Of a DNA stretch of 64,000 nt, positions 2,076 through 62,212 are shown in pieces. A program made the translations under genes and the position numbers. Source of the DNA: Closterium sp. NIES-65 (lineage: Eukaryota > Streptophyta > Zygnematophyceae > Desmidiales > Closteriaceae); NCBI GenBank assembly GCA_948144175.1, contig CANXME010002337.1:253001-317000 (forward strand), read 5' to 3'. Within the stretch, counting starts at the first letter, position 1, and every line of letters starts with the position of its first letter. Below the pieces are notes generated by a model. The model ran no database searches, had not been told where the DNA came from, and was given only the letters and a program-made list of their open reading frames with translations.

Positions 2076-2752
2076 ATGGCGTCGAGCGGGGGAAGCAGCG
2101 GAGGCGGTAGGCCGCTCGCTTTCCTAGAAGACATGAATCTTCCCGCGCCGGAAGCGGCGGAGGAAGATCGGGGGGGAGCATTTTCCGCGCATCAGCTTCC
2201 GCAGTCCGCCGCTCCGCCAGCCAGTTCCGCGCAGCCTATCATGGCCAATGCGCCATCCACGCAAACTGCGCTCGCGCAGGCGCCGTTCCCCGCGCAGCCT
2301 CCCCCGTCCGCCGTTGCGCCGTATTCCGCTCGACCGTCCGCGTATCCCGCATCAACAGCCACCTCGCTACTGTCCATCCCCGCGACCTTTCCGCCCACTT
2401 ATGGCGCGCAATCCGCTTCCGCGGGTTCCGCTCTCCCTGTTTCCGCTTCCGCTTCGGTACTAGTGCAGTCACAGCAACAGCAGCCGCAGCAGATACAAGC
2501 AGGTCAGCAGCTATTTCAACAGCAGCCGCCGCAATTTCAGGCGCAATATCAGGGAGGATCATTACAGTACCAGCAGCAGCCGCAGCCGCCGCCGCAGCAG
2601 TCGCACCAGCAGCAGCAGCAGCCGCAGTTTTTCCCACAACCAAGCCAGTACCAGCAGCAACAGCAGGGTGTGCAGTATCAGGCGCAGCCGCAGCAGTTTC
2701 TACACGCACCGTACCAACAGCAACCAACACAGCAACAGCCATCGCAGCAGCA

Positions 2753-2833
<81 letters not shown>

Positions 2834-5800: not shown

Positions 5801-6676
5801 AGGTTGGGGGAGGGAAGAGGTCGAAGAGAGGCGCAGGAGAGGGGGAAACGGGGGGTAGGGAGGGGAGAGAGGGGAAGGAGAAGGGGAAGAGGAGGAGGAA
5901 GGAGGGGCGATTGGCAACAGTGCCAGGGGAAGCTGGTTCTGGCGGTGGTAGGGAGGCAGGTGGTAGGGATGTTGCTGGAAAGGGGACTGATACTGATGGT
6001 GGGAAGACGGGAGTGCGAGGAGAGGGAGAGGCAGGGGTAACCGGTGGTGTGGGTGGTGTGCCAGGAGCAGGAGTGGGAGGAGTGGTGGGGGGTGTGGGTG
6101 GTGTGGGTGTGGTGCAGAGGGGTGCAAAAAGAGTGAAGGTAGAGGAGGTGGGGGGTGAAGGGAGTGTGGAAGGGGCGGGAGGGAGTGTGGAGGAAGGAGA
6201 AGCGGTTGGGAGGGGTGCAGATGGAGCAGTAACTGAAAGGGGGCCGGAGGGCAGTGTAGGTGCCCACGTTGCTGTGGCGTCTGCTGCTGTCTCTGCAGCT
6301 GATTCTGCCCTGGCTGCTGCTGCCCCTGCCCCTGCGCTTGCTGCTTCGCCACCTATACCTGCTGCTGCTCCTGCTCCTGCGCCTGCTGCCGCTGCTCCTG
6401 CTCCTGCGCCTGCTGCTGCTGCTCCTGGTGGTGCTGCAACTACTGCACCTGCGGCTCCTGCTGCTGCCGCTGCTCCTGCCCCCCTTCCTGCTGCTACTAT
6501 GGGCAAGGAGGCGGGGGCAGTGAAGAGAGAGGAGAGCAGTGGCAGGGAGGAAGGGAGGAGCAGGGAGGAAGCAGGGGAGGAGAAGGGGAAGAGGGAGAGG
6601 GAGGAGGAGGAGGAGCTGGCGGGAGCGATAGCGGGGAGGAAGCTCACCGCGCTGCCCCCATTCAGCAAGGCCGAAG
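2076..6676 (+). CDS. INTS1: INTS1 N-terminal low-complexity extension with DLN motifs
   Basis: The first exon(s) encode roughly 1,500 residues with no counterpart in animal INTS1. In order: an N-terminal EDMNLPAPE; Pro/Ala/Ser-rich sequence; a Gln-rich tract ending in a pure CAG run (about 2750-2832); GLDLNSCP (about 3484-3507); an Ala-Gly repeat coded by GGTGCT hexamers (about 4155-4330); FELDLNAPLDE (about 4402); FLHDLN (about 4798); FMVDMN (about 4951); then Glu/Gly-rich and Ala-rich tracts. The recurring acidic-D-L/M-N pattern resembles plant EAR-type motifs. The reading frame before about 3.6 kb and that after about 3.9 kb differ by one base position. Both contain DLN motifs, so both are probably coding and joined by splicing. 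The exon ends at AAGGCCGAAG/GTGAG (6676). Confidence 0.75.
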
Positions 6677-9600
6677 GTGAGTTCAGGTTTGAGACAACTC
6701 ATTGGGGAAGAGGGAGCAGGAGGAGGGAGAGGGAGGAGGAGTTGGTTGCAGCGATAATGGGGAGGAAGCTCACCGCGCTGCCCCCATTCAGCAAGGCCGA
6801 AGGTGAGATGGCGGTGTGATGGTGGGAGATTGTGGTGAGGGAGTTTATGGTTTTAGGGTTTGGTTTAGGGTGAGGGATGGGGAGAGGGAGAGGGAGGAGG
6901 AGGAGGAGTTGGCGGGAGCGATAGTGGGGAGAAGGCTCACCGTGCTGCCCCCTTTCAGCAAGGCCGAAGGTGAGAATGCGGTGTGATTGTGGGAGATTGT
7001 GGTGAGGGAGTTTATGGTTCAGGGTTTGGTTTAGGGTGAGGGATGGGGAGAGGGAGAGGGAGGAGGAGGAGGAGTTAGCGGGAGCGATAGAGGGGAGAAG
7101 GCTCACCGTGCTGCCCCCTTTCAGCAAGGCTGAAGGTGAGATGGTGGTCGATGTGTGCACTGCTGATATGTCTGCCTGTATCTGCTCTCTGTGTCCCACC
7201 CTGTTACACCACCTGCTCACGAGGTGACTTTTGAGTCGACTCAAAAGTCGCCTCGATGTGTGCACTGCTGGTATGTCTGCCTGTATCTTCTCTCCGTGTC
7301 CCACCCTGTTACACCACCCAGTCACGCCATATTATTGCGGGGGGCTTCTTTAACGAGGTGACTTTTGAGTTGACTCAAGAGCCACCCCGTTACGCCACTC
7401 TGTCATGTTACACCATTACATGGAGCTTCTTCAACTTCCCCTTCACGATCTTCCTTCCACCCTGCAGCTGCTTTTCCTTCTTGCTTCTTCCCATCTCTCC
7501 CCATCTCTCCCCACATCTTCCCACCTCTCTCCACGTCTTCCCACCTCTTCACATGTCCTTCCCACCACTCCCCACCCCCTCAGGGCTGGACCTGCACGAT
7601 CTAGTGTGGTCGGCCCACACATGCAGCGACCTGCCTTCTCTAGATGCCCTTCTCGCCCAGACCATCTCTCTGTGCCATCGCCACATGGCCTTCCACCTCA
7701 TCTCCCCTCCCCTCTTCCCTTCCCCCCAGGACTCGACCTGCTCGACCTGGTATGGTCAGCCCAGGCTCGAAACGATCTATCTTCTCTAGACGCGCTTCTA
7801 GCCCAGACCATCGCCCTCTGCCATCGCCACATGGCCTTCCACGCCGCTGTTGTCTCTGCCCATCATTCCCCTCTCACCTTAGTCGCTCCCTCATCCCACC
7901 CATACCTTTACCCACACCCACTTTCCCACCTCCCCACCCTTGTACTGCTTCCCACCGCCCCCCACCCCCTCAGGGCTGGACCTGCACGATCTAGTCTGGT
8001 CGGCCCACGCTCACAGCGACCTGCCTTCTCTCGACGCGCTGCTCGCCCAGACCATCGCTCTGTGCCATCGCCACATGGCCTTCCACCTCATCTCCCCTCC
8101 CCTCTTCCCTTCCCCCCAGGACTCGACCTGCTCGACCTGGTATGGTCAGCCCACGCTCGAAACGACCTGCCTTCTCTCGACGCCCTGCTCGCCCAGACCA
8201 TCACCTGTGCCATCGCCACATGGCCTTCCACCTCACCTTCCCTCTTCCCTCCCCCTCCCATCCCCGTCCAGGGCTCGATCTCCTCGACCTGGTCTGGTCA
8301 GCCCATGCTCGCAACGATCTCTCTTCTCTAGACGCGCTTCTAGCCCAGACCATCGCCCTCTGCCATCGCCACATGGCCTTCCTCTGCTCCTGTTTCCCTT
8401 CTCACCTCTTCCCACCTGTCCCCACCACTCCCCGCCACCCCCAGGACTTGACCTCCTGGATCTAGTCTGGTCAGCTCACGCACGCAGGGACCTGCCCTCA
8501 TTAGACGCCCTTCTCGCCCAGACCATCGCCCTCTGCCATCGCCACATGGCCTTCCACGCCGCTGCTGTCTCTGCTGGCCCCTCCTCGCTCTCCCTCGCAC
8601 ACGCCTCCCCCGCCGCCACCGCTGCTGCGCTTGCATCGGCCCGCTACCACTACTGCTCGCTCGCATTTGTTTCCAAGAAGATTCCCGAAGCCTTTGGTCT
8701 GCGGCGTACCAGAGAGGTGAGAAGAGGAGGGGAGAGGGGAACACGAACAGGGAGAGGGGAACACGAACAGGGAGAGGGGAACATGAACAGGGAGAGGGGA
8801 ACACGAACAGGGAGAGGGAGGTGAGGTGGGTGAGGGGTAACAGTAAGACGCACTTTGTCCTACCCTACCCTCTGCCTGTTTCAACTGCTGCCTGCACACA
8901 CAAACGTTTTGTCTTGCTTCTTTCACACCCTTACCTTACTCCCATCGCATGTCTCTTACCTTCCTCCTCTCCCCCCCCCGCCAGGACCTCCCATGAATTC
9001 TGATGGCAGCAGTTGTAAATGATTCGGGCGAATTTCAAGGTGCCTCAAGAGGTGACTTTTGAGAGCCGAATTTCAAGGTGCCTCAAGAGGTGACTTTGAG
9101 AGCCGAATTTCAAGGTGCCTCAAGAGCCGTATTCACCCTTCCTTCCCCCACTCCCTTCCTCCACTCCCCTCCAGGCACTCATATCAGTGCTGATGACACC
9201 AGTTATAGATGACACAGACGATCCTCCCGGCGTCTCAACTCAATAGTCAGAATCACCCTTCCTTCCTCCACGTCCTTTCTCTCCTTCCTTCCTCCTCCTC
9301 CATGCAGGCGCTCCTATCAGTGCTCATGGCACCAGATGCAGACGACACAGGTGCAGCAGGAGGGGGGGACCGAGCAGGAGCAGGAGGAGGGGGAGGGGGA
9401 GGGGAGAGGGCGTCAAGGAAGGCCACGCCAGTGCTGCTGCAGGCGCTTGCATGCCGCCTGCTGCTGCACGCCTTTGCTGCTCGCCCTCGCTGGCCCGTCG
9501 CCTTCCTAGAGGTAAGCTTCCCTGCTGAGTGAGCTTTACAGTTTACATACATGGTCGCCCCGCTGGCCTGCTTGCCTCCCTCCCTCCTCCCGTCTCCCCC

Positions 9601-12600
9601 TCAACCTCCATCCTCCCTGTGACCCTCCTCTGCCCTCCCCTCTGTCGATTTCCTTTTTCCCAGGCCTATCTCAGCGATGCCTGCGGCCCACGTCACTGGG
9701 TGGACCTGGATACATGCAGGGACTTTGTCTCTGCCGTCTCTGCCTGCCTGCCTCACTCCCTCGTCGCTCCCCCGCCTGCCCTGCTCCGCCCTCCAGCTGC
9801 CGCCCCACCTGCTGCTGCTGCTCGTGCTGCCACTGCTGCTGGTCCTGGTGGTGCTGCTGCTTCGAGGATTTCGGCTGCGGCGTCTGCTGCAGCTGATTCA
9901 GCGGAATCAGGAGGGAAAGGGGTGAAGGGGAGGGCAGGAGGGGGCGGCCCTCCTCGCTCCCCTGCTGTCAGCACCAGCAGCGTTGGTGGGGGCAGCGTGA
10001 GCGGTGGTGCTGCTGCAAAGAAAGGGGTGAGTGGATAGCGAGAGAGGCAGATGGGCTGAGGACTGATTTTTCGAAAATGACAAGCTGAGTGGGGTCGTCA
10101 TTTGGGTTGTTAGTTGAATTGTCAGTTGGGTCCCATGCCCCCCCCTCCTCTCCCTCCTCTCCATCTCCCTCTTTCAATCTGCTCCAGGCGTCAGACACTG
10201 CCACGTCATCGGAGAGGCTCGGAAGCGTCGGCTTGGATCGGTTCGGAGGTTCGGAAACCGAGGCTGAGATAGAGCGGCTGTTTGTGGGCAGCATTCAGCG
10301 AATGGTCAGCTCCGGCAGCAGCAGAGAGAATCCGAGGCACCTCATCAGGTGCGTGGGCGGCAGGCATGGGATAGGGTCGGATGTCTCAAGTGGTGGGAGG
10401 GGGTGGGGAGGCAAGTGTGGGTGGTTGTGGGGATTAATAAGGCATGCATTCAGCGGATTGTCAGCTCCGGCAGCGGCCTGGTGAATCCGAGGCACCTGAT
10501 TAGGTGCGTGGGAGGGGGGAGTAGCATGGCGCCTGATCAGCTGCGTGGACGAAAGGCATGGAATAGGGTTGGATATGAAGCGGTGGGAGGAGGTGGGGAG
10601 GCAGGCATGGGTGGTCGTGGAGAATAAGACAAGCATTCAGCAAATGTCAGCTGCAGTAGCAGCAGAGCTCACCAACACATTTTCCGCTTCCCATCCCCCT
10701 CCCATTTCCATTTCAACCCCAGACTGCTGGTGCTGGGGGCGGGATACCCGTCGGTGAGAGTGCAGGCGGCCTCTCTGCTCCCCCCGTGGCTCTCCTCTAC
10801 CGTGCACGCCCGCTCCGCTCGCCTGCTGCTGGAGCAAGTGATAGCTTTCACCCGCCACCCAGCCCCACTCAACAACACGTCTTTTCTCTTCCCTATCACC
10901 CTCTCCCCCCCTTCTTTGTACCCCAGGCTGCTGGTCCTGGGGGCGGGGTATCCGCTGGTGAGAGTGCAGGCAGCCTCTCTGCTCCCACCCTGGCTCTCCT
11001 CCACTGTGCACGCCCGCTCTGCTCGCCTGCTGCTGGAGCGAGTGATAGCCCTCACACGCGGCACCACCGCTGCTGACTGGCGCACGCTGGAGCACCTGTT
11101 GAGCATCAAGGTGAGTGTGTGACGAGTGCAAGCCTGTAGCCAAGGAGGTGAGTGATAGCGCTCACGCACGGCACCACCACTGCTGACTGGCGCTCTCTGG
11201 AGCACCTGCTGAGCATCAAGGTCAAGTCTTGATCCTTTTGCTTAACCGATTTCTCTAGGTTTGCTGCTACTCCCAATATGAACTTGGATTCCTGAGCACC
11301 TGCTGAGCATCAAGGTCAAGTCCAACACACAGGGCGCGTGAGTAGAAAGCAAGGAGAGTATGGCTGGAGCAAGTGATAGCTCTCATGCGCGGCACCACCG
11401 CTGCTGCGTGGCGCACCTGAGAGCACCTGCTCAGCATCAAGGTGAGCGGTTGATGAAAGTAGGCCTGGCAATCTGGATAAGGCTGGAGCGAGTGACAGCT
11501 CTCACACGCTGCCCAGGGGGACTGTGAGTGAGGGGAGTCAACGCTGCTGCCCAGGGGGACTGTGAGTGAGGGGAGTCGACGCTGCTGCCCAGGGGGACTG
11601 TGAGTGAGGGGAGTCGACGCTGCTGCCCAGGGGGACTGTGAGTGAGGGGAGTCGACGCTGCTGCCCAGGGGGACTGTGAGTGAGGGGAGTCGACGCTGCT
11701 GCCCAGGGGGACTGTGAGTGAGGGGAGTCGACGCTGCTGCCCAGGGGGACTGTGAGTGAGGGGAGTCGACGCTGCTGCCCAGGGGGACTGTGAGTGAGGG
11801 GAGTCGACGCTGCTGCCCAGGGGGACTGTGAGTGAGGGGAGTCGACGCTGCTGCCCAGGGGGACTGTGAGTGAGGGGAGTCGACGCTGCTGCCCAGGGGG
11901 ACTGTGAGTGAGGGGAGTCGACGCTGCTGCCCAGGGGGACTGTGAGTGAGGGGAGTCAACGCGTGAGAGCGTGCATGCAACGTATGGTGCAGCGTATGAG
12001 CAGGCGGTGCAGCTTATGAGCGGGCGGTGCAGCGTATGAGCGGGCGGTGCAGCGTATGAGAGTGTGGTGCAACGTATGAGAGTGCGGTGCAGCGTATGGA
12101 AATAGCGGCGCAACTCGTCAACATCTCCCCTCACACGCACCTCATACGCCTCTCACACGCACCTCATACGCCTCTCACACGCACCTCATACGCCTCTCAC
12201 ACGCACCTCATATGCCCCTCACACGCACCTTATACGCCTCTCACACGCACCTCATATGCGCACCCCATCCCCTCACATGCCATGTGTGTACAGGCAAAGG
12301 GGTCGCAGCAGGGAGGCAGCACATTGCCGATGGAGATAGCGGCTCAGATCGTCAACATGCTCATAAGATAACCCTCACATGCACATGTCATGCTCATCAC
12401 ATGCCCCCCACACGCAACTCATGTACCATCCATGCCATGCATGTGCCATGTGTGTGCAGGCGAAGGGGTCGCAGCAGGGAGGCAGCACACTGCCGATGGA
12501 GATAGCAGCTCAGCTCGTCAACATTCGTCCTGAATACGCTGCCTTTGTCATCAAGGTGACTCCTTCTTATGCCAGTACATGCCAGTATACACACACCTCG

Positions 12601-18600: not shown

Positions 18601-21600
18601 ACCGCCTCCCATCAAGCAAGAATGGCACGAATTGGCTGGTCTGGGATCAGGAGCAGCAGCAGCAGGGGAAGCAGAGGGTGGGGGCAACAGGGCGGGGGCA
18701 GCAGCAGCAACAGGAGGCTTGGCGGAGGTGCCTGCATGGCTGGAGGCGGAGATGGGGGAGGAGCTGCTGCTGCAGGAGGGGGAGGGGGAGGGGGAGGGCG
18801 CGGGGGAACGGGGAAGCGGGAGGCGGGAGAGGCAGGGGAAAGAAGGCTCAGGGGTGGTTGCGGGCGCCGGGGGGGGCGCGGGGATGGGGGCAGGGGTGGG
18901 GGAGGGGCAAGGGCGGATGGGGCGGTATGTGCCGGAGGAGGTATGGGGGGTGGTGTGGGAGTGGGACAGGCAGTTTGGGCTGGGGCGGCTGTTGAGGCAA
19001 GCCTTTGGTGCGTCTGCTCTGGAAGGGCTCATACGCGCACAGGTGAGCGAGCGAGGGGGGAAAGAGGGGCTGGGGTGGGGGAAGGGCAAGGGCGGATGGG
19101 GCAGTATGTGCCGGAGGAGGTGTGGTGTGGGGGGTGGCGTGGGAGTGGGACAGGCAGTTTGGGCTGGGGCGGCTGCTGAGGCAAGCCTTTGGCGCGTCTG
19201 CTCTGGAAGGGCTCATACGCGCACAGGTGAGCGAGGGGACGTTTTCTTTTGAGAAATTATAAGAGGTGACTTTTGAGGCACGATTTTCGTGCCTCTGCTC
19301 TGGATGGGCTTATACACACACAGGTGAGGGCCCACTCCCCTCTCGCCTCTCCCCTCCCACCACCCACTTCCTCTCCCCCCTACATTCACACAGCCGGTTC
19401 GCTCTCTTTCCCTCCACCCTGCCACCCCTACCAGGGTGGAGTGGCGGCCTCCTGGTCATGGCTGCACGGCTTCCTCTCGAGCAACCCGGCAGTGGTGGCT
19501 CATCTGGCCCCCACCACTCAGTGCGCCATACTCTACCAGCAGTGGCGCTGGGAGGATGCGTCCCTTCCCCACTCCGCCCCTCCGCCTCTCTCCCCCTCCC
19601 ACACGCGAAGCACGGTACAGTTGCTGCAAGCCGCTGTTGCGAGGGAGGTGAGGGAAAGAGGAAAGGCCGATGGGGCAATACACGAAGGGGGGAGAGAGAG
19701 AGCCGAGGCAGAGGAGGCAGCAGGAGGAAGAGCCGGGGGGGGTGAATCAACCAAGGGAGGTGCAGTGGTGGATATCGTGGGGTTGCTTGCAGGCAAGCTG
19801 GCCTCTCGGGTTGAGTCCAAACGCGCGAGCAGCAGACGGTGCTTGGCTGCTATCTTCTCCCCTGACCTGCTGCTGCTGCTGGCCCCGGAATCAGCAGGAG
19901 AAGCAGAAGCAGCAGCAGCACCAGGAGCAGCACCAGCAGCAGTTGCAGCAAAATTGGAACCTGCTGCAGCCTTACCAGCAGAAGGAGCACTAGTGAAGAA
20001 TTCAGGGGGTGGGCTTTATGTGGGATGGCTGGAGGAGATAAACCAGCTGCCCATGGCATGGGATGCTGCGCGCCTGCTGCTGCCTGCAGTGTGCCATGCT
20101 GTGATGCGAGAAACTCACACCCCCACGGTGAGAAGCACACATCCCCACGGTGAGAAACACACATCCCCTCTTTCATTTGAAGGATGTGAGGGTGTTTTGT
20201 TATGCTGCTAGGCTGCTGCTGCTGCTGCTGCTAGCAGTGTGCTGTGCTGTGCTGTGCTGTGCTGTGACGAGCAGAACACGCTTTCCCACTGTGTGTTTTC
20301 TCGTGACTTCACCTGACCACCGGTCTATAGGAAGGTCTTTTTGCATACATATTGTACCCTGCACTAATTCCCGCCCATCTTCCTTGCTGCTCCTTGTGCC
20401 AGATTGTTGCTTACATATCTTACCTGCACTTCTGGTACCGCCAGCAGCAGAGCAACCAAGCTTGCAGGCAGCAACAGGGAGAGGCGACGAGTGTTGGCAG
20501 TGGGGAGGTGGAGGAGAAGCGAGGGGATCGGAAGGTGGGGGTGAGTGAAAAGATGGGGGAGGAGGAGGTGCACGAGAAGGGAGAAGAGGAGGAGAAAGGG
20601 AAGGGGGGAGAGGAGGGAAAAGAGGAGGGAGAGGAGGGAAAAGAGGAAGTAGAGAGAAAAGAGAAGGGAGAGGAGGAAAACGAGAAGGGAGAAAGTGAGG
20701 GAAAGGAGAAGGGAGGGGGTGCGAAAGGAGGGGAGGAGGGAGGGGATGGTGGAAGAGAAGAGAAAGGAGGGGAGGAGGTGGACGAAGAGCATGAGCGTGA
20801 GAAGGAGAGTGAGAAGGAGGGTGAGAAGGAGGGTGAGAAGGAGAGTGAGAAGGAGGGTGAGAAGGAGGGTGAGAAGGAGGGTGAGAAGGAGGGTGAGAAG
20901 GAGGGTGAGAAGGAGGGTGAGAAGGAGGGTGAGAAGGAGGGTGAGAAGGAGAGTGAGAAGGAGGGTGAGAAGGAGAGTGGGAAGGAGAGTGAGAAGGAGG
21001 GTGAGAAGGAGGGTGAGAAGGAGGGTGAGAAGGAGGGTGAGAAGGAGGGTGAGGAGGGTGAGGAGGAAAGTGAGAAGGAAGGTGAGGGGGCGAAGCAGCG
21101 GGTAGGCACAAGGGTTGAGGAGCAACCAACCACCCAACCACCAGCTGCTCGTGCTCCCCGTCTCCACGGGGCAGTTGCCTCCACCCCTCCCCCCGTCTCT
21201 TCACCTCACTCTCTCGGATCCTCAGCCCTCCCCCTTCCCCCGCTCAATCTCCCCCTCCTCTTGGCGCGTCTCATCCGCACCCGCCCCCTCCTGGCGCGCC
21301 AGCTGCTCTCCCCCCTCCCCCCACTCCTCCCCCTTCCGCCCACCCAACCCCTCCCGCCCCTCCTCCCCATTTCGGGAGATGGGGGAAGGGCAAGGGAGAA
21401 GGGTGGAGAAGGGGGAAGGGCAGAAGGGGCGGAAGAGAATGCAGGGGGTGTGATGGGGGGAAGAGATGGCGGAAGGAGAGAGGACGAAGATGTGGAGATG
21501 GCAGATGCTGGGGGTGAGGGAAGTGAGGGCGATGTTGAGGAGATGGGCGAAGGGAGCATAAAAGGAAGAGGAGGCGAAGAGGGAAAGCGGAGGGCGGGGG

Positions 21601-22677
21601 AGGAGTTGGGGGGTAAGGGGAAGAAGGTGCGGAGTGAGGGGGAAGGGGAGAACGGGGAGGAGGAGGGGAAGGGGGGAACAAAAGGGGAAGATGGGGGGAA
21701 AGAGGAGGAGGAAGGGGAAGAGGCTTTAGAACGACCTCCCTGGTCGCCTGTGGGGAGCCGTGGGGAGGATGGGGTTGATGGGGGGAATGGGGTTGATGGG
21801 GGAAATGGGGGGGACGAGGGGGAAGAGATGGAGGAAGGAGAGAGGGAAGGTGGGCAGGAGACGGGGAAGAAGAGGGATGGGGAGGGTGGGGTGGGAGATG
21901 GAGCAGAGGCAATGGAAGTGGAAGGAGGAGAAGAAGGGGGAGGTGGGGATGGTGGGGATGGTGGGGGCAGTGAGGATAAGGGTGAAGTTAATGCTGCTGT
22001 TTCTGCTGGTGCTGCCTGTGATGTTGCTGCTGCGGGGGAGGGGATGCAGGTGGACGGGAGGAGAGAGGGTGGAGAGGAGGAGAAGATGGAGGGGAGGGCA
22101 GGCGCGATGGATGGTGAGAGGCAGAGAGGAGGGGAGGGAGACGAGGGTGTGGGGTCATGGCATGTGGTGTGTGTGCTCTGTGATTTGCTGCGAGAGGCTC
22201 TGGAGGGAGGGAGTTCAGGGGGGATGAGGGAGGAGATGAGGGATGGGATGGGGAAGGATATGGGAACGGGGATGGGAGCGGGGGTATGGGGGCGGATAAG
22301 GGAGGGAAGGAGGGCTGACGGTGAGGAGAGGGTTCTCTTCGCCCCCGCTGCTGCTGCTGCGCGCACAGACGGCACAGATGCATCTGCTGCACTCCCTCCT
22401 GCCACTCCTGGGCTTGTCCTTGTTCCCCTGGTGGTTGTGCGGGCAGCTGTGGACGTGCTGTTGCTGCTCTCCTCCCTCCCTGCTCTCTCATTACCCCCCA
22501 CCACAACAACTGCTCTCCCTGCTCCTCCTGCTGCTCCCAACACGAGTGCTATCACTCCTGCTCTGCCTCTCGCCTCCGACGCTGCAATGCTGCCAGGTGC
22601 AGTGCTGCAAGCAAGGAGTGCGTATCAACGGCTCAGCCGACTGCTCTTCTTGGATCCTATCACTCCCGCCTCTGCTC

Positions 22678-22711
<34 letters not shown>

Positions 22712-25700
22712 TGCTTTGCTTCCGTCTGTAGCAGCTGCAGCAGCAGCTTCAGCCACTGCTGTTGGCGCATACAGCGCTGCCACTGACGGCTCGGATGCAG
22801 CTGTGACAGGTACTGCCTCCGCCAGGGTGTGGCGAGTCAAGTTTGTGGCGGGCAAGGGAGGGGCGGGGAGGGCTTTGCAGGGAGGTGTGTGGGTAGCTGA
22901 GGAAGGGGAGATGGCGGAGAGAGGGGAGGAGATGGTGGGAAGAGGAGAGGAGGTGTGCCTTGTAACGAAGGAGCAAGTGCTGCTGCTTGGTGAAGGATGG
23001 GGAGTGGAGGGCAAAGATGGTCGGGATAAAGTGGGCGAAGGAGATGGTATGGGTGGAGCAGGAGGAGGAGATGGTATGGATGTGGATGGGGGAGAAGGGA
23101 AGAAGAGTAGAGAGCTCACTCAGATAGCAGATGGCGGAGAATTAGGGGAAGGAGTAGAGGCACGAGGAGCGGAAGGAGGAATTGGAGGAGGAAGAGAGGC
23201 GATGGAAACAGATGCAGCTGACACAGTAGGGCCCGCACCATCCATGCCAGACACAGCAGCAGCAGCGGAGGCAGCAGCAGCCAAAGAAAAAGAAGCAGCA
23301 GAGCCAGTGACAGCAGCAGCAGCAGAAGCAGAAGCATCGGCAGGAGGGGTAAGAGAAGAAGGGCTTCAATCAGGCAGTGCAGGGCAGCCTTGCTGGGTGG
23401 AGAAGGGCTGCCCGCTTCTCTCCTCATCTTTCCTCTTCTCCACTCTCCTCTCTCTCCCTCTCTCAGCGTTCAAAGCCCAGGTGCAGCAGGCAATGCAGGC
23501 AACCTTGCTGGGTGCGGGGAGGGGCGAGCTAGGAACGGAAGGGGGGACAAGCGGGATAGGACTGAATGAGGTGACTTTTGAGTCGGCTCAAAAGTCGCCG
23601 GAAGAGGGGACAAGCAGGATAGGACGGAATGCTGCAAGAGAAGCAAGCAGGGAAAGGGAGGAAGCGAGGGAAGGGGGGAAAGAGAGTGGCATGGGGGAGT
23701 TAGTGGGGCGGCTTGTGCGCGTGTTGGAGGGACTTGTTGGGGTGCAGGAGGAGGGTGAAGGCGCTGCAGCAGGCAAGGCTAGTGGGGCGGATGCGAGGGA
23801 GGCGGATGCGAGGGAGGCGGATGCGAGGGAGGCGGAAGCAGTTGGCCATGAAGGGGAGGAGGAGGGGCATGGGCAGCATGCAGGGCAGGAAGGGAAGGAA
23901 GGCGGGCAGGAGGACCAGGAGGGGGAGACAGCAGAGCAAGAGGACTTGCAGCAAGGCAAGTCAAGAGGCACTCTCCCTACTGCACAGGACGAGGCGAAGG
24001 CTGTAGCTGCTCTGGAAGCACTGCTGCTGCTCGACCCCTCCGCTTCCCACCCCAGCTTCCGCTCCTTCCTCTCTCTCACCCACAGTCACGGACACAAACA
24101 CAATCTCGGTCGGTCTCGCGGTCGCAATCACGCTCGCTCCTTTTCTCCCTCTCCCCGCCTCCTGCTCCTCCCCCGCATGCTCCATGCGGCATATGCCGCC
24201 CTCTCTGACCCACGCGTGCCTGATGCTGCCGTTTTCAGTCTCGCCTCCTTTCTCTGCCAGCAAGGGGCAGTCTGCGACTTACCCTCAGTACGACAAGGGC
24301 ACGGTTCGAAGTTACCTGTTGGAGAGGATGTGAGGGCGGAAGGAGGTGGGGATGAGGAGTGGAGTGTGTGGGCTGTTCGGGAGTTGGCGCAAGCAGCTCT
24401 GAGGTTCATTGCAGGTGCTTTAGAGGCAGGTCGGAGTGGTGATGATCAAATCAGCGAGATCGCTACGGTGCGATCTCAGCCATCCGTTTTCGTTTTGACA
24501 TCAAAGGAAGCAGCGGGGCTCGCTCAAATCGCTGCGGCTGAGCTGGCAGCTTCTGATTGGCTGACTGAGCATGCCGTTTGTCAAAAGGAGGCGCCAAAGC
24601 AGCAAGCAGAGGGAAGCAGGAGAGATGGAGGAGGAATGTGGGGAGTGTGGAGAGGTGCAGGCTTTAGAGAGGGGGAAGGGGAGGGGGAGGAGGAGAGGGA
24701 GCAGGAGGAGGAGAGGAGGCAAGCGGATGAAAGGGAGGTGGTGCTGGTGCAGGTGTTGACGAGAGCAGGCAGCTTCCTGCAAGCTGCTGAATATGCTGAT
24801 GTTGCTGCTGGGGATGCCAGTGGTTGGGATGCTGAAAGTGCTGATGGTGGTGCTGACGGTGGTGGCAGCAGCACCCGTACATCCCGGGCGATTGTGGATG
24901 AGCTGTGAGTGCTGCTTCCTTCCTTGCTTGCATGCTTGCTTGCTTCCTTGCTTCCTTTAGGACCCCCCAAAAGATCGATGGCAGGTACTTGTTTGAACTC
25001 CGGCCATGGTATCATTTTGTTTTCTTAGTTATTATTTAAGCCATCGCTCCTCCCTCCTGCACATTTTCTCAGGTGTCGACTCACTCAGCAGCAGCAGTGG
25101 AACAACCAGCAGGGCAATCAGACCCATCATTTCATGGCAGAAGCTGCATGGAAGCTTCTCGCAGGCCTCTACTGCACAGCGCCAGACGCACTCTCCAGGC
25201 ACCTTCCTGAGCCGCGGGCCGGTTGGAAGGGTCGTGTGGCCTCTCGCTCTGTCCCTGAAAGATACGCCCGGGCATCTGAAACTCTCTCCTCATTGGCCCG
25301 CACTCTCCAGCAGCTCGTTCAGTCCTGCCTGCCCGGACCTTCCTCCGGGCAGAAAAACGAGATGGGTGCTGATTTTTCGACAGGGGTGGGAGGGGAAGGA
25401 GTGGGGGGAGAGAAGGGAGGGGAGGGGGAGAGGGAGAATGAAAAGAAGAGGAAGTTGGAGGAGGAAGAGGAGGCGGAGAGGGAGAAGGAAAGGGAGAGGA
25501 AGACAGCAAGTACATTGCTGTATCTGCGTGGCATGGCGGTGGCTCATCCGATGCTTGTTGTTCCCTTGCTGCCCATGCTGGCAGCGCAGCTGCAGGTGAG
25601 ACCTTGGTTCCCCTCCATCCCCACTTCTTTTTCCCCTATACTGTGCACCACACTCCAAGTCCTCGTTCCTAACATTACCTGTGTATCCCAGTCATAGCTG

Positions 25701-28147
25701 CACTCAGTGCCTTCTCCCAGTCCTTGTACTCCTCTCAGTCCTCCAAACTCCAAAGCTCCTACTCGCCCTCTCTTTCTCTGCTCCCTCTCTTATGCCCCCT
25801 TTCTGTGCCCCACACCACACCCCAGGATCTCATCTCTCTGGTGACCTGCTCGTCCCAGTCACTCAAGTCAGCAGCAGTCAACGCCTTCTCCTCTGCCCTC
25901 GTGCTGCTCTCCGCCCTCCAGCCCTCCCTACTCGCCCTCTACAACCGTCCCCCCTCCACCACCACCACCACCAGCACCACTGTCAACAGCAGCAGCGGCG
26001 GCAGCAGTAACAACCGCAACGTGTTGGCAGTGTGTGTGCAGCCATTCTTGGACCTTCTACTGACGCTGAGACTAAGGGACAAGCCCACTGTGGTGCGACT
26101 GGTGGCGCAGCTCTCTGACTTCCTCCTCCGCTGTTGCTCCCACTCTGCTGCCGCTGACATGCACGTGGGCATGAATGGTGCCATGCATGCACAAGCGCAC
26201 ATGGCTCCACATGGTCCCATGCGTGCAGACACTCAGACAGGCACAACAAAGATCTCTCAGCAAGCAGGCTCCCATCTCAAGAGTCTAGAGCTGGTGCGCG
26301 CGCACAGGGGCGGGGCGTTGGCGCACGCAGCAAAGCACTTCGGCAAGGTGAAGAAGCTGAAGCTGCTGCTCGCAACACTGGATGGTGGAGACAAGCCCAC
26401 TGTTGAAGGAGAGGGTGAAGGAAGGGAAGGGGACCCGTCGTCGGGGAAATGGGTGGGGTTGAGCGCAAGGCTGGTTCTTGTGCTGCAAGGCTCAGCGAGT
26501 GGCGCTTCAGTTGAGGACGAGTGGTGGCTGTCAGGAGATGATGCCTCTACTGCTGCTCGTGGTGCTGCTGCTGGTGCTGCAGCTGGCATTGAAGCAGGGA
26601 AAGCAGCAGGAGAAGGGGCCCACGTGGAAGCAGTGATGGGAGTGCTGCAGGAGATAGAGTCATTGGCAGCACAGCAACCAGCCAGACTAGCCCTTTTCCA
26701 GGAACCCCTCTGCATGGCTCTGCTCTGCTGCCCGTTCCCCCACTCTCCCTCTCTTCCCCCCTCCCTCGCTGCTGTTGGTGGTGGGAGTGTTGCACCTGCT
26801 GGGGTTACTGGGTTAGCAGCAGCGGCTGCGGCTGGTGGTGGGGTGGAAGGGAGGGTGGATGGGGGGATGGTGGTGGATGCGGTGCTGAGGCTGCTGGAGC
26901 GAATGCTGCTGCATGCATACGGGTGAGAAAGAGGGTGCTCTCTATCACGACCATGCCTCTGTTGTCTACTGGTGCTGTTTCGGGAATACCTGACGCTATT
27001 CCAGTAACGGGAGCACCTTCAGTTAGAATACTGTGCGACTGCAGCCGTTGAGATTACCCACAGCCCGAACAGCTTCACATCCTGGCTCTATGCACCTAAC
27101 CTCCCTTTCTTCCTTTCTCTTCTCTCTTCTCACCTCTCCTGTCCCCCCCTTCTCACCTCCTCCCACCCTTCCCCTCCCATGCAGTGCCTGTAACCTCGCC
27201 ATCGTCGCCTCCTCTCTCCTGCGCCTGCTCCACTCTCTCTCCCTCCACCCCCAACCCCCCCTCCTGCTGCTGCTCTCCTCCTACATGCCTCGCCTGCTCT
27301 GCCTCCTCCCAGGTATGATCATTCCACCACAGTATGTTTATTAGAAACAACACAAACAAACAAACTAGCACGCTCTGTTTCTTCATGTATTGGTGCGTGG
27401 TTTTGAGTGAGGATTTGACTGACAGCGCATGTGTTTTCGCCTGTGTGTTTGCCTGCAATGCTTCCTGCTAGCTTGGCTTGGTGACTCACCCTTGTGCCCT
27501 TGCATCCGCCCCCACCCACCTGTACCAATCAATAAAAATCTCCTTACACCCCATCCTTTCATGCACCCTTTGTTCCTCTCTACGCTACCAACCCCGGACT
27601 CCCCACCCTCTCCCTCCCCCTTTTAATACCCCAATGCAGACCACACGCAGCAGCTGCTCGATGCGCTCATGCACCTGCCGCTCTTTCCCCTCCTGTATCC
27701 CACCAACTCCCCACTCCCTCACCCCACTCCCACTCCCACTTCCTCACCCTTTTCAATACCTCCCAGCAGACCACAGGCAGCAGCTGCTAGATGCACTCAT
27801 GCATCTGCCGCCACACCATTCGCTTCCAGCTCCTCCACCCGCCAACATGGGCTTTGGCATGGGCTCCCCACCTGCTCACCCCTCCTTCCTCCCCCACCTT
27901 TCACCCCCAATGTTCCCCAGCAGACCACAGGCAGCAGCTGCTAGATGCACTCATGCATCTGCCGCCACACCATTCGCTCCCTCCAGCTCCACCCATCGGC
28001 ATGGGCTTTAGCTGCGCCCCTTCCCACTCCCATGAGTCACCACCTGAGCCTGGGAGGCCTGGCACCAGCACCACCAGCACTCCCCTCCGTGATTCCGATG
28101 ACCCGCTGCTGTGTACAGTGCGCTCTATAGTGGCCGTGGAGTTGTGA
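2076..28147 (+). CDS. INTS1: Integrator complex subunit 1, very long multi-exon gene
   Basis: INTS1 is a scaffold HEAT-repeat subunit of the nuclear Integrator complex, which cleaves snRNA 3' ends and attenuates RNA polymerase II. Conserved blocks occur in the same order as in the animal protein: CRLLLHAFAARPRWPVAFLE plus YLSDACGPRHWVD (animal YIEDSLGERIWVD); LGAGYPSVRVQAASLL; PMEIAAQLVNIRPEY; AVTWCATVVAADCSSLCP plus DLLRCVLFFDP; VGLPVLEETLARVILLGIS (animal VPILEDTLMRILVIGLS); AAMQMLLHLLVRAATV; ASWSWLHGFL; MAVAHPMLVVPLLPMLAAQL (animal LAVAHPLLLLRHLPMIAALL). The start at 2076 (MASSGGSSGGG) opens a long low-complexity N-terminal exon. The stop at 28147 follows DPLLCTVRSIVAVEL, like the animal C-terminus. 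There are about 20 core exons with GT-AG borders. A frame change around 3.6-3.9 kb means an unrecognised intron or an assembly indel. Many exons have tandem copies (separate entries), so the exact exon chain is uncertain. Confidence 0.92.
2750..2832 (+). repeat. CAG trinucleotide run (poly-Gln) in INTS1
   Basis: A nearly pure CAG run of about 27 codons inside a longer Gln-rich coding region. It encodes poly-glutamine in the INTS1 frame and poly-Ser or poly-Ala in other frames. Confidence 0.95.
4155..4335 (+). repeat. GGTGCT hexamer array (Ala-Gly repeat)
   Basis: About 28 GGTGCT/GGTGAT hexamers in tandem, encoding alternating Gly and Ala/Asp in the INTS1 frame. The run is interrupted by a few GAT variants, which suggests local unit shuffling. 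Confidence 0.95.
6591..7141 (+). repeat. Four tandem copies of an exon end with its splice donor
   Basis: The segment coding EELAGAIAGRKLTALPPFSKAEG occurs four times. Each copy ends in the same donor GAAG/GTGAG (GT at 6677, 6803, 6970 and 7136). Copies 3 and 4 are about 170 bp apart and share the intron piece beginning GGTGTGAT and containing GTTTGGTTTAGGGTGAGGGA. Copies 1 and 2 are joined in frame. The gene therefore offers four near-identical 5' splice sites; I cannot tell which are used. Confidence 0.9.
7221..7254. repeat. 34-bp near-perfect palindrome between two direct repeats
   Basis: GAGGTGACTTTTGAGTC at 7221-7237 is followed immediately by its reverse complement with one mismatch, giving a palindrome centred on GTCGAC. 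It is flanked by two copies of a ~70-bp direct repeat starting GATGTGTGCACTGCTG (about 7149-7220 and 7254-7325). A second, weaker copy (GAGGTGACTTTTGAGTTGAC) lies at 7355-7388. The same motif recurs at other duplication junctions in the window. Confidence 0.9.
7584..8716 (+). repeat. INTS1: Six tandem copies of one INTS1 exon
   Basis: Acceptor plus exon start recur at about 7584, 7740, 7974, 8120, 8272 and 8445. Each copy encodes a variant of LDLHDLVWSAHARSDLP followed by LDALLAQTIALCHRHMAFH. Only the last copy runs on into the rest of the exon (YHYCSLAFVSKKIPEAFGLR, donor after 8716), which aligns with animal LYLSLMYLAKIKPNIFATEG. The other five end after the shared block in pyrimidine-rich sequence that leads to the next acceptor. 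They could be dead copies, alternative 3' splice sites, or cassette exons. Substitutions between copies are few, so the duplications look recent relative to the gene. Confidence 0.9.
8985..9511 (+). CDS. INTS1: INTS1 conserved exon (PF-like HEAT block) plus two decayed copies
   Basis: The live exon is about 9308-9511 (acceptor CATGCAG, donor CTAGAG/GTAAGC). It encodes ALLSVLMAPDADD, a Gly-rich linker, then VLLQALACRLLLHAFAARPR and WPVAFLE, matching animal LVSVLACNLLMAAYEEDENWPEIF. Two decayed copies of its first 40 bases lie upstream (about 8989-9027 and 9176-9222). Between them are about 2.6 units (9029-9128) of a 37-38-bp repeat containing the GAGGTGACTTTTGAG half-motif and AAGGTGCCTCAAGAG. 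Confidence 0.85.
9664..10348 (+). CDS. INTS1: INTS1 exons with the YLSDACGPRHWVD block
   Basis: Exon 9664-10026 begins AYLSDACGPRHWVDLDTC and continues FVSAVSACLPHSL. This is the most diagnostic INTS1 block (animal YIEDSLGERIWVDSPHCKTFVDNIQ). An Ala/Pro-rich linker follows. The next exon, 10188-10348, encodes ETEAEIERLFVGSIQRMVSS and ENPRHLIR, matching animal YVLDMLRDQLNRR and NVSRNLLRLL. The donor after CATCAG is at 10349. Partial copies of this exon end recur at about 10446-10507 and 10630-10665. Confidence 0.9.
10723..11440 (+). repeat. INTS1: Duplicated INTS1 exon plus three copies of its 3' end
   Basis: The exon encoding LLVLGAGYPSVRVQAASLLP and WLSSTVHARSARLLLEQVIA occurs twice (from 10723 and from 10927). 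Only the second continues to DWRTLEHLLSIK with a donor at 11111, matching animal QDMDVISHLIKIRLK. The terminal part (GCACCTGCTGAGCATCAAGGT) is then repeated around 11200-11222, 11290-11315 and 11420-11443. Confidence 0.9.
11511..11962. repeat. 38-bp minisatellite, 12 units, in an INTS1 intron
   Basis: Twelve nearly identical 38-bp units (GCCCAGGGGGACTGTGAGTG, then AGGGGAGTCGACGCTGCT). First and last units differ at one base (GTCAACGC instead of GTCGACGC). Each unit carries CTGTGAGTG, which resembles a splice donor, and GTCGAC, the centre of the palindromic motif found elsewhere. The array lies in an intron; open frames across it are an artefact of the repeat. Confidence 0.95.
11985..12290. 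repeat. Two further short tandem arrays in the same intron region
   Basis: About 11985-12090 holds 20-bp units (GCAGCGTATGAGCGGGCGGT) repeated about five times. About 12120-12260 holds 22-bp units (CACACGCACCTCATACGCCTCT) repeated about six times. They flank a partial copy of the next INTS1 exon (about 12093-12122), so the arrays and the exon copies are interleaved. Confidence 0.85.
12093..12668 (+). repeat. INTS1: INTS1 exon PMEIAAQLVNIRPEY in one full and three partial copies
   Basis: The complete exon is about 12460-12555 (acceptor TGTGCAG, donor ATCAAG/GTGACT) and encodes GSQQGGSTLPMEIAAQLVNI then RPEYAAFVIK. Earlier partial copies lie at about 12093-12122 and 12295-12360. A copy of only the last 25 bases lies at about 12640-12668. 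Each partial copy keeps one splice border. Confidence 0.85.
12944..13612 (+). CDS. INTS1: INTS1 exons: RVLAAAVRAMA block and the short exon after it
   Basis: Exon about 12944-13285 encodes LLLWEIRKESPHHMRVLAAA followed by a charged Gly/Arg/Lys/Glu-rich insert and VEIGRVLQ. The head aligns with animal DYLRASRALLREIIKQ. The short exon about 13560-13612 encodes EFSVDPTLNPHLPALATK. A partial copy of that short exon lies at about 13450-13475. Confidence 0.7.
13670..14463 (+). repeat. INTS1: INTS1 exon LLRALSGLITPLHL in one full and two shorter copies
   Basis: The full exon (about 14022-14463) encodes LLRALSGLITPLHLCRQLFH and LPESLLVPAYCRLASLVRTL, then a coded Ala/Gly repeat and KALFDTACVQ. A copy from about 13840 to 13935 repeats its first 90 bases. 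A still shorter one lies at about 13680-13735. Variants are exon-like, and each has a pyrimidine-rich acceptor in front. Confidence 0.85.
14505..14600. repeat. 16-bp tandem array GTTTGTGTGCATATGC
   Basis: Six to seven units of GTTTGTGTGCATATGC directly after a splice donor, inside an INTS1 intron. Simple minisatellite; no function seen. Confidence 0.9.
14765..16150 (+). repeat. INTS1: INTS1 exon TEAVTWCATVVAADCSSLCP in one full and several partial copies
   Basis: The full exon (about 15670-15960) encodes TEAVTWCATVVAADCSSLCP, a Gln/Ala linker, then SIFDLLRCVLFFDPIP. This matches animal RDAVWWLHTVVPSISKLAP plus YVHCLHKVLFTEQP. Its first third recurs at about 14769-14850, 14929-14955 and 15520-15600. 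Its last third recurs at about 16045-16115 and in part at 16140-16165. Between the full exon and the first 3' copy lies a stretch (about 15994-16048) with two GGCGCCTCAA words related to the palindromic junction motif. Confidence 0.85.
16460..17000 (+). repeat. INTS1: Exact 140-bp tandem triplication of an INTS1 exon end plus intron
   Basis: The block encoding VVETWVGLPVLEETLARVIL with its donor, about 50 bp of intron and a poly-C acceptor tract is present three times at exactly 140-bp spacing (the word ACATGGGTGG starts at 16591, 16731 and 16871). Copies 1 and 2 look identical over the unit; copy 3 has a few changes (GAGTCATCCTCTTGG). Animal match: VPILEDTLMRILVIGLS. The near-identity means very recent duplication, gene conversion or an assembly artefact. 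Confidence 0.92.
17130..17996 (+). CDS. INTS1: INTS1 exons AAMQMLLHLLVRAA and LSAAIFKLASVVLP
   Basis: Exon about 17283-17395 encodes SPGPGQDAAMQMLLHLLVRA and LWAGRLVVSGPQ (animal LGPADAMELADHLVKRAAAV). A diverged partial copy of it precedes at about 17137-17200. Exon about 17671-17996 encodes LSAAIFKLASVVLPRPLLAL, KLLAARRFWQACCAAVLITA, a Pro/Ser linker and TVQRMLEALFMHHVPSV. This matches animal NLAISTLYWKAWPLLLVVAA and PTLKMLMEMVMTNNYSYP. Confidence 0.88.
17997..18340 (+). repeat. Repeated copies of an INTS1 exon end with donor
   Basis: After the donor at 17997, the piece GTGCCATCCGTGTAAG plus about 25 bp of intron is repeated at about 18028 and 18067. A longer copy of the exon end (CAGTGCAGCGCATGCTAGAAG to GCACCA) recurs at about 18133-18192 and 18267-18330. 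Each copy retains a donor-like GTAAG or GCAAG. Confidence 0.85.
18511..19325 (+). CDS. INTS1: INTS1 exon with two downstream copies of its end
   Basis: Exon about 18511-19042 encodes WQRQAEQDTQASALLRRLLS, a Gly/Ala-rich insert, then EWDRQFGLGRLLRQAFGASA and LEGLIRAQ. This aligns with animal VKSLNQSLRLGHLLCR and FLLHIIQRQ. The last 165 bp, with donor, are repeated at about 19063-19226 (184-bp spacing). The last 35 bp are repeated at about 19290-19322. Between copies 2 and 3 sits the junction motif GAGGTGACTTTTGAGGCACG with a hairpin partner (19263-19297). Confidence 0.88.
19435..20127 (+). CDS. INTS1: INTS1 exon ASWSWLHGFL to CHAVMRE
   Basis: One long exon encoding GGVAASWSWLHGFLSSNPAV and LAPTTQCAILYQQWRW (animal MPWLADLVQSSEGSLDVLPVQCLCEFLL), then DIVGLLAGKLASRVESKRAS and LYVGWLEEINQLPMAWDAAR plus VCHAVMRE (animal GYQWLLRDLPRLPLFDSVRS and LQQAIHMET). 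Two short repeats of the donor region (CCCCACGGTGAGAA) follow at 20121-20160. Confidence 0.88.
20403..24904 (+). CDS. INTS1: INTS1 large charged exon region
   Basis: The region opens with IVAYISYLHFWYRQQQS (animal ISAYLIYLSQHTP) and stays open for about 1,500 codons. It is mostly Glu/Lys/Gly-rich low complexity with islands of helical sequence (LNLPLLLARLIRTRPLLARQ; VVCVLCDLLREALEGG; VREDAAVFSLASFL-like pieces near 24.2 kb). It ends at a donor GAGCT/GTGAGT. The 23349-23600 part includes intron-like pyrimidine sequence and a copy of the junction palindrome, yet stays open, so a small intron there is possible. Most of this expansion is absent from animal INTS1. Confidence 0.7.
20791..21075 (+). 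repeat. 12-bp GAGAAGGAGGGT coding array
   Basis: More than 20 units of a 12-bp repeat encoding Gly/Ser-Glu-Lys-Glu in the INTS1 frame. It adds a long, highly charged stretch. Units differ mainly at one base (GGT/AGT). Confidence 0.95.
23535..23632. repeat. Junction palindrome flanked by ~30-bp direct repeats, in open frame
   Basis: GAGGTGACTTTTGAGTCGGC followed by its mirror (23568-23600) sits exactly between two copies of GGGGACAAGCGGGATAGGAC-type sequence (about 23541-23567 and 23606-23632). The arrangement is the same as at 7221: palindrome in the middle, tandem copies of local sequence on each side. Here it falls in a stretch that is open in the INTS1 frame. Confidence 0.88.
25073..26922 (+). 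CDS. INTS1: INTS1 C-terminal HEAT exons
   Basis: Exon about 25073-25595 encodes MAEAAWKLLAGLYCTAPDAL and LYLRGMAVAHPMLVVPLLPM, matching animal ACRKLAVAHPLLLLRHLPMI. Exon about 25826-26922 encodes DLISLVTCSSQSLKSAAVNA, VQPFLDLLLTLRLRDKPTVV and GVLQEIESLAAQQPARLALF, matching animal LLSFIRLLLNYRKSSR and LLEVLSDIDEMSRRRPEIL. Borders are normal: acceptors TTTCTCAG and CACCCCAG, donors CTGCAG/GTGAG and ATACGG/GTGAG. Confidence 0.88.
27185..28147 (+). CDS. INTS1: INTS1 last exons, with the last exon start in three copies
   Basis: Exon about 27185-27312 encodes CNLAIVASSLLRLLHSLSLH and LLLSSYMPRLLCLLP. The next exon start, DHRQQLLDALMHLPPHHSLP, appears three times: about 27638, 27772 and 27924. Only the third runs to the stop at 28147 through TPLRDSDDPLLCTVRSIVAV. 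The first two copies each have their own AG acceptor and end in pyrimidine-rich sequence. All three would let the gene end in frame only through the last copy. Confidence 0.85.
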
Positions 28148-28491
28148 AACTGTGGAGCTGTGTGGGGCTGAGACGCAAATAGAGGTGTATGTGGGTGCTG
28201 CAGTGCTCTACACAATGCTTCATAGCAGCCGCATGGAGTAGTGAAGCTTTGGGAGTACATTACTCTTGTAGATTTAGTATCCGTGGGGTGCTTCAGAATT
28301 TAGACGTGGCATAGCCAGGATGATCATCATGGTAGACGAATCCAAGCTGTCTTACCCCCCATAAACATTTGTTTGGTTCTACAATAATGTGCTATGAAAG
28401 GTGAATGTACAGAATCTCAAATGCAGGATGTGGGTGGTGCGGTGAGAGAGATTTCAACAGCAGGTCCACCCTACAGAGACGCTGTTGCTGC
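28148..28491. other. Convergent 3' spacer between INTS1 and CMC2
   Basis: The two stop codons face each other across about 345 bases. The interval must hold both 3' UTRs. I see no further gene or repeat in it. Confidence 0.6.
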
Positions 28492-33800: not shown

Positions 33801-33895
33801 TGGTGTGTGTGCTGCTACTGCTGCTGCTGAAGCTTCACAGCTCATATGAAGGGGCGAGCTCCATCGGCACTGGCACTGGCATGTCAAGCGAGTGA
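30806..33895 (+). CDS. Plant-type Syntaxin-6/SYP61-like N-domain protein with C-terminal membrane anchor
   Basis: Four exons: 30806-30879, 31065-31203, 31407-33245 and 33431-33895, with GT-AG borders; they sum to 2,517 bases, exactly 838 codons plus stop. The N-terminus reads DPLFPAAEEVQDSAD then RLRSSFHQWQQL, like SYP61 (DPFYIVKEEIQDSIDKLQSTFHKW). Then come ACDTLKWQ/LQEFERAV and RRQQFISAIRAQLAQVDTAV, the pattern of the plant Syntaxin/t-SNARE family that includes Arabidopsis At1g27700. A ~450-residue Ser/Gly/Gln-rich region follows, then a basic patch (VGWQLSVKRRRPLL) and one membrane helix (LQVVAVVVCTSVVVCVLLLL) near the C-terminus. I see no SNARE motif, so it may be a tethering or regulatory relative rather than a working SNARE. 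The site of action is inferred to be TGN/endosome. It is much longer than land-plant members. Confidence 0.85.
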
Positions 33896-38400: not shown

Positions 38401-38820
38401 GGGCCGGTAGAGGCGGCGACGGGGCCGCGAAGGGCGGCGACGGGAGCCGCTAGAGGCGGCGACGCGGCCGCGAAGAGCGGTGATGGGGCCGCTAGGGGCG
38501 GCGACGGGGCCGCGAAGGGTGGCGACGTGGCCGCGAGGGGCGGCGACGGGGCCGATAGGGGCGGCAACGGGGCCGCTATGGGCGGCGACGGGGCTGTGAA
38601 GGGGCCGCAAGGGGCCTAGAGGGGCGGCGACGGGGCCTAGAGGGGCGGCGACGGGGCCGTGAAGGGGCCGCGAGGGGCCTAGAGGGGCGGCGACGGGGCC
38701 TAGAGGGGCGGCGACGGGGCCGCGAAGGGGCCGCGCGGGGCCTAGAGGGGCGGCGACGGGGCCTCGAAGGGGCCATGAGGGGCCTAGAGGGGCGGCGACG
38801 GAGCCGCAAAGGACGGCGAC

Positions 38821-62189: not shown

Positions 62190-62212
62190 CATGGGGGGGG
62201 GGGGGGGGGGGG
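62190..62212. repeat. G homopolymer of about 22 bases in the Gag region
   Basis: A pure G run inside the Gag-coding part of the young Copia element. Its length is prone to slippage and to sequencing error. Confidence 0.9.

Follow-up and report, generated by a model that had tools for sequence, protein, structure and literature searches.

Partial copies of exon ends in most introns of an INTS1-like gene of the green alga Closterium

Results

Exon-end copies occupy most INTS1 introns

In an INTS1-like gene of Closterium we observed 34 partial copies of exon ends, located in 15 out of 21 introns and derived from 16 out of 22 exons. We describe these copies and their positions, together with their range of ages, their link with intron length, their synonymous bias and the mosaic members among them. 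The account that we consider probable, with appreciable room for doubt, is that duplication across exon–intron borders recurred in this gene and was accompanied by exchange between diverged INTS1 versions, especially among the acceptor-side copies of intron 1.

The window, that is, the whole stretch of DNA analysed, comprises 64,000 bases with 58.5% G+C and no N. The gene model (2076..28149, + strand) was built by hand and consists of 22 exons, and all 21 of its introns are GT-AG. An open reading frame runs from 3850 up to and including exon 12, and again from exon 13 to the stop codon; joining exons 12 and 13 in frame would take either a weak donor at 16353 or an acceptor at 16232. The open reading frames also indicate a frame change within exon 1, between 3850 and 4163. 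By eye, it falls near a 30-bp repeat (3882-3960) and is due either to a short intron or to an error in the sequence. In total, the exons cover 15,434 bases, over double the length required to encode the 2190-residue human chain, and long low-complexity runs are present in them at 2571-2832, 4159-4330 and 20793-21086.

Judging by its sequence, the gene is INTS1. An 858-residue piece matches the INTS1 chains of solved Integrator structures in the PDB (human INTS1, E=6.9e-11), and it is this match that places the gene in the family. The Pfam INTS1 domain PF12432 scored 18.5 bits (E=0.0021), below the cut-off of 25. Two protein searches yielded no INTS1 relatives at E<=0.001 among proteins 0.55-1.75 times the length of the 1493-residue query, with 8000 candidates scored in the first; given the length limits and the candidate limit, this does not imply that relatives are absent.

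To find the copies, 120-bp exon ends were aligned locally to their own flanking intron, and the search was stopped below a score of 40. As a control, exon ends were compared 760 times with introns of the gene that they do not adjoin. The copies scored 42-202 (seven of them only 42-47), all above the mismatched controls, which had a mean of 18 and a maximum of 37. A repeat search with 200-bp ends again returned 34 copies in the same 15 introns. No copy reached the score threshold in introns 3, 4, 12, 14, 18 and 20. A putative intron within exon 18 (23349-23466), which scored 40, was left out of the count. All copies sit inside introns already present in the model, as follows.

6704..7135, + strand: intron 1, three donor-side copies of the exon 1 end (ends 6802, 6969 and 7135)
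7584..8384, + strand: intron 1, five acceptor-side copies of the exon 2 start, A1-A5 (starts 7584, 7730, 7974, 8120 and 8272); A6, at 8445, is exon 2 itself
8985-9015, + strand: intron 2, weaker copy of the exon 3 start, from direct alignment
9175..9217, + strand: intron 2, acceptor-side copy of the exon 3 start (score 46)
10441..10667, + strand: intron 5, two donor-side copies of the exon 5 end, the second (10632-10667) borderless
10723..10855, + strand: intron 5, acceptor-side copy of the exon 6 start
11150..11512, + strand: intron 6, three donor-side copies of the exon 6 end, the third (11482-11512) borderless
12294..12358, + strand: intron 6, acceptor-side copy of the exon 7 start, with a further weak piece at 12096-12124
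12633..12666, + strand: intron 7, donor-side copy of the exon 7 end
13452..13481, + strand: intron 8, 30-bp piece of exon 9, borderless (score 45)
13670..13933, + strand: intron 9, two acceptor-side copies of the exon 10 start, the first (13670-13731) borderless
14772..15602, + strand: intron 10, copies of the exon 11 start, 14772-14841 with the border and 15536-15602 without it
near 14930: intron 10, third, short copy of the exon 11 start, from direct alignment only
16042..16113, + strand: intron 11, donor-side copy of the exon 11 end
16722..16932, + strand: intron 13, two donor-side copies of the exon 13 end (140-bp unit)
17142..17192, + strand: intron 13, acceptor-side copy of the exon 14 start, weak (score 42)
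18126..18323, + strand: intron 15, two donor-side copies of the exon 15 end
19066..19323, + strand: intron 16, two donor-side copies of the exon 16 end
20212..20254, + strand: intron 17, piece of exon 17 near the exon end, weak (score 43), borderless
25696..25771, + strand: intron 19, decayed piece of the exon 20 start, borderless (score 44)
27640..27858, + strand: intron 21, two acceptor-side copies of the exon 22 start

These results bear out the claim of the first-pass annotation that most INTS1 exons have copies, in sets of 2-6 with the real one included. Of the 13 coordinates it gave, 11 mark a copy or an exon whose end is copied. The other two, 8985 and 12093, proved to be only weaker matches in direct alignments (71% over 56 bp and 86% over 29 bp), and the sets at 11150-11512, 12633, 13452, 16042, 20212 and 25696 were missing from it. 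Its description of every piece as carrying one splice border applies to 27 copies: 20 alignments reach the border and 7 more end 1-5 bases before it. The remaining seven are borderless exon pieces (10632, 11482, 13452, 13670, 15536, 20212 and 25696).

The copies are local, direct copies of parts of the same gene and thus belong to internal (intragenic) tandem duplication. A blast comparison of the window with itself (E<=1e-4, with low-complexity filtering) gave five rows in which a segment of the gene was paired with an inverted partner or with one at a distance of over 1.5 kb; these corresponded to two coding pieces of low complexity and a short palindrome. Among the matches at E<=1e-4, none placed a copy of an INTS1 exon end in another part of the 64-kb window or in inverted orientation, which argues against insertion of an introner or other mobile element. 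None of the 34 copies spans both borders of an exon (the queries were exon ends of at most 200 bp); this does not fit mutually exclusive tandem exons, in which a copy has both the acceptor and the donor of one exon. We also considered purely intronic duplications with units above 60 bp and found only one clear case (7148/7253), not counting the pair of palindromes or the alignments of exon-end copies with one another. The remaining repeats confined to introns are minisatellites; purely intronic minisatellites lie in introns 6 and 10: 11508-11962 (38 bp x 12), 12130-12256 (22 bp x 5.8) and 14496-14597 (16 bp x 6.4).

The palindrome is near-perfect, lies in intron 1 (7220-7255; 36 bp, 94%) and recurs in the open frame of exon 18 (23568-23599; 97% over 32 bp). 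A related piece was found at 7353-7389, and others were spotted by eye near 9040 and 19260. The palindrome could represent a hairpin or a small mobile element which also entered coding sequence.

Elsewhere in the window, a 157-bp unit forms two tandem copies (94%) at 1229-1545, upstream of INTS1. A four-exon gene for an STX6/10/61-type syntaxin is located at 30806-33893 (Pfam PF09177, E=3.5e-15), and none of its three introns (185-203 bp) holds exon-end copies, with scores of 13-22. Pieces of Copia-type retrotransposons (RVT_2, rve, SH3_retrovirus, gag_pre-integrs) are present on the minus strand at 36518-41293 and 58881-62228. The Copia-type open reading frame at 58881-60455 (minus strand) had at least 6590 matches among 8000 scored candidates, and the best 120 of the 6590 were all from Closterium, in line with Closterium as the very probable source of the DNA. 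A search of viral contigs gave no match.

Copies are arranged as expected from duplication across borders

Acceptor copies lie upstream, and donor copies downstream, of the exon that is copied. Four introns (1, 5, 6 and 13) hold both kinds, and in all four donor copies precede acceptor copies, the acceptor copy of intron 13 being weak. This order follows from tandem duplication across each border, which also explains which copy continues into the rest of the exon. It had been proposed that this is usually the last copy; we observed it for acceptor-side sets, whereas in donor-side sets the first copy continues. Tandem duplication of whole introns, or intron variants strung together, predicts acceptors before donors, an order seen in none of the four introns.

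Introns with copies have a median length of 514 bp vs 164.5 bp for those without (Mann–Whitney p=7e-4), the copy-free ones spanning 134-276 bp. Intron length correlates with copy number (Spearman 0.88), partly by construction because the copies themselves occupy space. We also calculated how often duplications would cross a border if 110-204 bp units (15 observed distances, hand-chosen) were placed uniformly and kept only if the exons stayed intact. The expected share is 94% for an intron of 165 bp, 87% for 200 bp, 76% for 250 bp, 68% for 300 bp and 56% for 400 bp. This suggests that uniform placement followed by survival of exon-sparing events is sufficient if the introns started short, and that a border-targeted mechanism is not needed.

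Copies differ widely in age

Divergence was measured on 16 hand-chosen pairs of a copy and its used border, out of the 34 copies. In these pairs it equals 0.057 at first, 0.059 at second and 0.182 at third codon positions, compared with 0.171 for the intron side; there are 0.018 gap bases per aligned base in exon parts vs 0.131 in intron parts. Intron-side differences range from 0/68 in the first donor copy of intron 13, which makes this set the youngest, to 8/26 in the intron 1 acceptor A2 and in an intron 6 donor, with 5/13 in the very short stretch of an intron 1 donor. The 140-bp unit of intron 13 has both GT and AG, but by eye its 74-nt addition would shift the frame.

So wide a range means that the sets are neither products of one event nor recent assembly duplicates, and it argues against a single accident or a simple assembly error. 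Sets differ in breakpoints as well as in ages, in agreement with the earlier suggestion of many independent events. That suggestion had left a choice between a duplication-prone mechanism and the assembly. Targeting of borders is superfluous if ancestral introns were short, and the divergence at neutral sites makes an assembly artefact unlikely.

Copies diverge from the used exons mostly at synonymous sites

Compared with the used exons, the 34 copies have 54, 56 and 174 differing sites at codon positions 1, 2 and 3. The 836 whole codons contain 147 synonymous and 91 nonsynonymous differences as well as 2 stop codons. Leaving out the two stop codons and bootstrapping over 19 families, we obtained a Ka/Ks of 0.20 (0.12-0.36). 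Without the intron 1 acceptors the ratio was 0.29 (0.21-0.39), and in the most cautious setting 0.34 (0.22-0.48). Pooled Ks between copies and used exon was 0.78 for the intron 1 acceptors and 0.23 for the copies without them.

The intron 1 acceptor array comprises diverged coding lineages

The bias is strongest in copies A1-A6, which code for nearly identical 37 residues, except A4 after its frameshift. Differences in the intron 1 acceptors are distributed 10:7:73 over codon positions 1, 2 and 3. Variable columns shared among A1-A6 occur 15:2:1 at positions 3, 2 and 1. Private differences of A1-A5 occur 7:3:3 at the same positions, in addition to the A4 frameshift, and the used A6 has six private differences at position 3 and one at position 1.

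Ks is 0.26 between A1 and A3, 0.20 between A2 and A5, 0.27 between A4 and A2, 0.31 between A4 and A3, and 0.55-1.09 in other pairs. A4 is a mosaic which, by eye, has an A2-like first half and an A3-like second half. By these comparisons the array comprises three or more coding lineages that have diverged from one another: A1/A3, then A2/A5 together with part of A4, and A6. Among A1-A5, only A3 can be read in frame and without stops, so translation in place fails to explain the coding-like divergence. As the long shared branches are coding-like and the short private ones are not, the simplest account would be that pieces of already diverged INTS1 versions were joined. The last 24 aligned bases (7673-7696 and their equivalents in A2-A6) are near-identical even at third positions, with one difference, in A5, and in this they depart from the remainder of the aligned part; they are a possible switch point for recombination.

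Discussion

Proposed mechanism and its alternatives

Under the explanation that we favour, small tandem duplications of roughly 110-200 bp would have struck the INTS1 gene repeatedly. Those inside exons would have been purged by selection, and those straddling a border were presumably tolerated since a complete border is still left, namely the last copy in the case of an acceptor and the first in the case of a donor, which splicing would then choose. Spare copies would turn into intron, hold their splice dinucleotides for a while, decay and leave the intron longer. The exon pieces among the intron 1 acceptors at least, and to a smaller extent those across the whole gene, would stem from INTS1 versions that had diverged as coding sequences; alleles or gene copies of different origin probably recombined and so brought them together.

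The exchange step could be dispensed with if every copy came from the adjoining exon and had been dead since birth, the synonymous excess being small-sample noise, an effect of selecting alignable copies or mutation bias. Neutral copies would account for several families: the intron 1 donors, intron 2, the intron 13 acceptor and intron 17 look plainly neutral, and the families other than the intron 1 acceptors are small. If the two intron 1 acceptor pairs are left out, divergence at positions 1 and 2 is, by our sum, about 0.40 of that on the intron side, near the expected half and not clearly below 0.5. By our own derivation, copies dead from birth should have a Ka/Ks of about 0.5, because constraint acts on the used exon only. 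The upper bootstrap limit, however, stays below 0.5 in all six settings (0.36-0.48); a value of 0.5 was reached by 1.7% of bootstraps when each family was represented by its most diverged copy and the acceptors of introns 1 and 5 were omitted. The distribution of differences in the intron 1 acceptors also speaks against dead copies. Simulations of such copies, run 200 times under each of three mutation biases with a single copy from every family (one of them an intron 1 acceptor copy), never reached the observed shares of third-position differences (0.583 vs maxima of 0.558-0.571) or of synonymous differences (0.550 vs maxima of 0.500-0.529). We therefore regard border duplication without exchange as unlikely, albeit the alternative to be taken most seriously.

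A different way to preserve coding sequence would be use of the spare borders as alternative sites that make INTS1 isoforms or send mRNA to decay. Arrays of alternative splice sites had been proposed for the gene, and among 35 copy sites listed by hand (15 acceptor and 20 donor coordinates) AG is indeed present at 14/15 acceptors and GT at 14/20 donors. Three sites (6802, 7974 and 10723) are open in frame. The copy at 10723, which can be read into exon 6 without a stop and would add a 68-residue insertion, is synonymous-biased (Ks 0.34, Ka 0.04). Only these 3 of the 35 are both in frame and stop-free, though, so most use would be unproductive, and A2 and A5 are strongly synonymous-biased yet out of frame. 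Retention of AG and GT is probably close to what a short neutral decay leaves, and selection for keeping the splice dinucleotides is among the readings that we set aside. Altogether, we find use of the spare borders improbable.

Least probable of all is an assembly artefact that would have inserted pieces of other INTS1 copies in the introns: mixed gene copies would supply diverged coding sources, and two of six published Closterium assemblies are termed moderate drafts in the accessible part of PMC10407611, but the same text describes the sequenced cells as haploid, the window is free of N, 15 introns are affected, donors precede acceptors in all four informative introns, and intron sides align and decay together with exon sides.

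Implications

If border duplication is the right explanation, its steps are still readable in INTS1, as each growth step leaves an exon-edge copy whose decay dates it. As far as we know, intron lengthening without transposons is poorly documented. Should the coding-like divergence reflect homeologous exchange, introns would record past alleles, in a land-plant relative with unstable genome size. Decoy borders with intact AG or GT could also mislead the annotation made by gene predictors.

The mean INTS1 intron measures 507 bp (10,640/21), which lies within the mean intron lengths of 485-554 bp given for Closterium strains in the accessible part of PMC10407611, so the growth process could be genome-wide. 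As a tentative suggestion, for which we put the chances well below even, Closterium introns may lengthen by a border-duplication ratchet that is fed by recombination of diverged copies and stores readable pieces of ancestral or homeologous alleles.

Comparison with known systems

For the Closterium psl complex, the accessible part of PMC10407611 reports that genes are extensively duplicated in haploid cells, that Ks within strains peaks at about 0.35, and that strain NIES-4550 is a hybrid, in which recombination between sequences of different origin was confirmed by PCR and Sanger sequencing. The Ks between the intron 1 lineages (0.55-1.09), like their pooled value against the used exon, exceeds that peak, which weighs against our explanation. 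Diverged homologues recombining in one haploid genome are what our explanation shares with this description; there the scale is that of contigs, whereas in INTS1 recombination would have acted within one intron.

Our literature search found no paper evidently devoted to the border-copy pattern, many subscription papers being outside its reach. Internal duplication of genes is a known kind of event according to the accessible part of PMC4974935, and so is the gain of introns through tandem duplication. As in such intron gain, extra splice sites in INTS1 come from tandem duplication, but here an existing intron grows and none is new.

Internal gene duplication spanning exon–intron borders was reportedly described by Gao and Lynch in 2009. 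INTS1 resembles that system in that pieces of the gene are tandemly duplicated with intron borders included. It differs in that 15 of the 21 introns of one gene are affected, with sets of up to six, and in that the exon structure is unchanged and the introns are lengthened.

Where tandemly duplicated exons are spliced in a mutually exclusive manner, every copy comprises a complete exon, acceptor and donor included. Diverged coding versions adjoin one another in INTS1 as well, but no INTS1 copy has both exon borders. To our knowledge, existing introns that grow again and again out of their own borders, and draw on diverged coding sources, represent a new variant among these systems.
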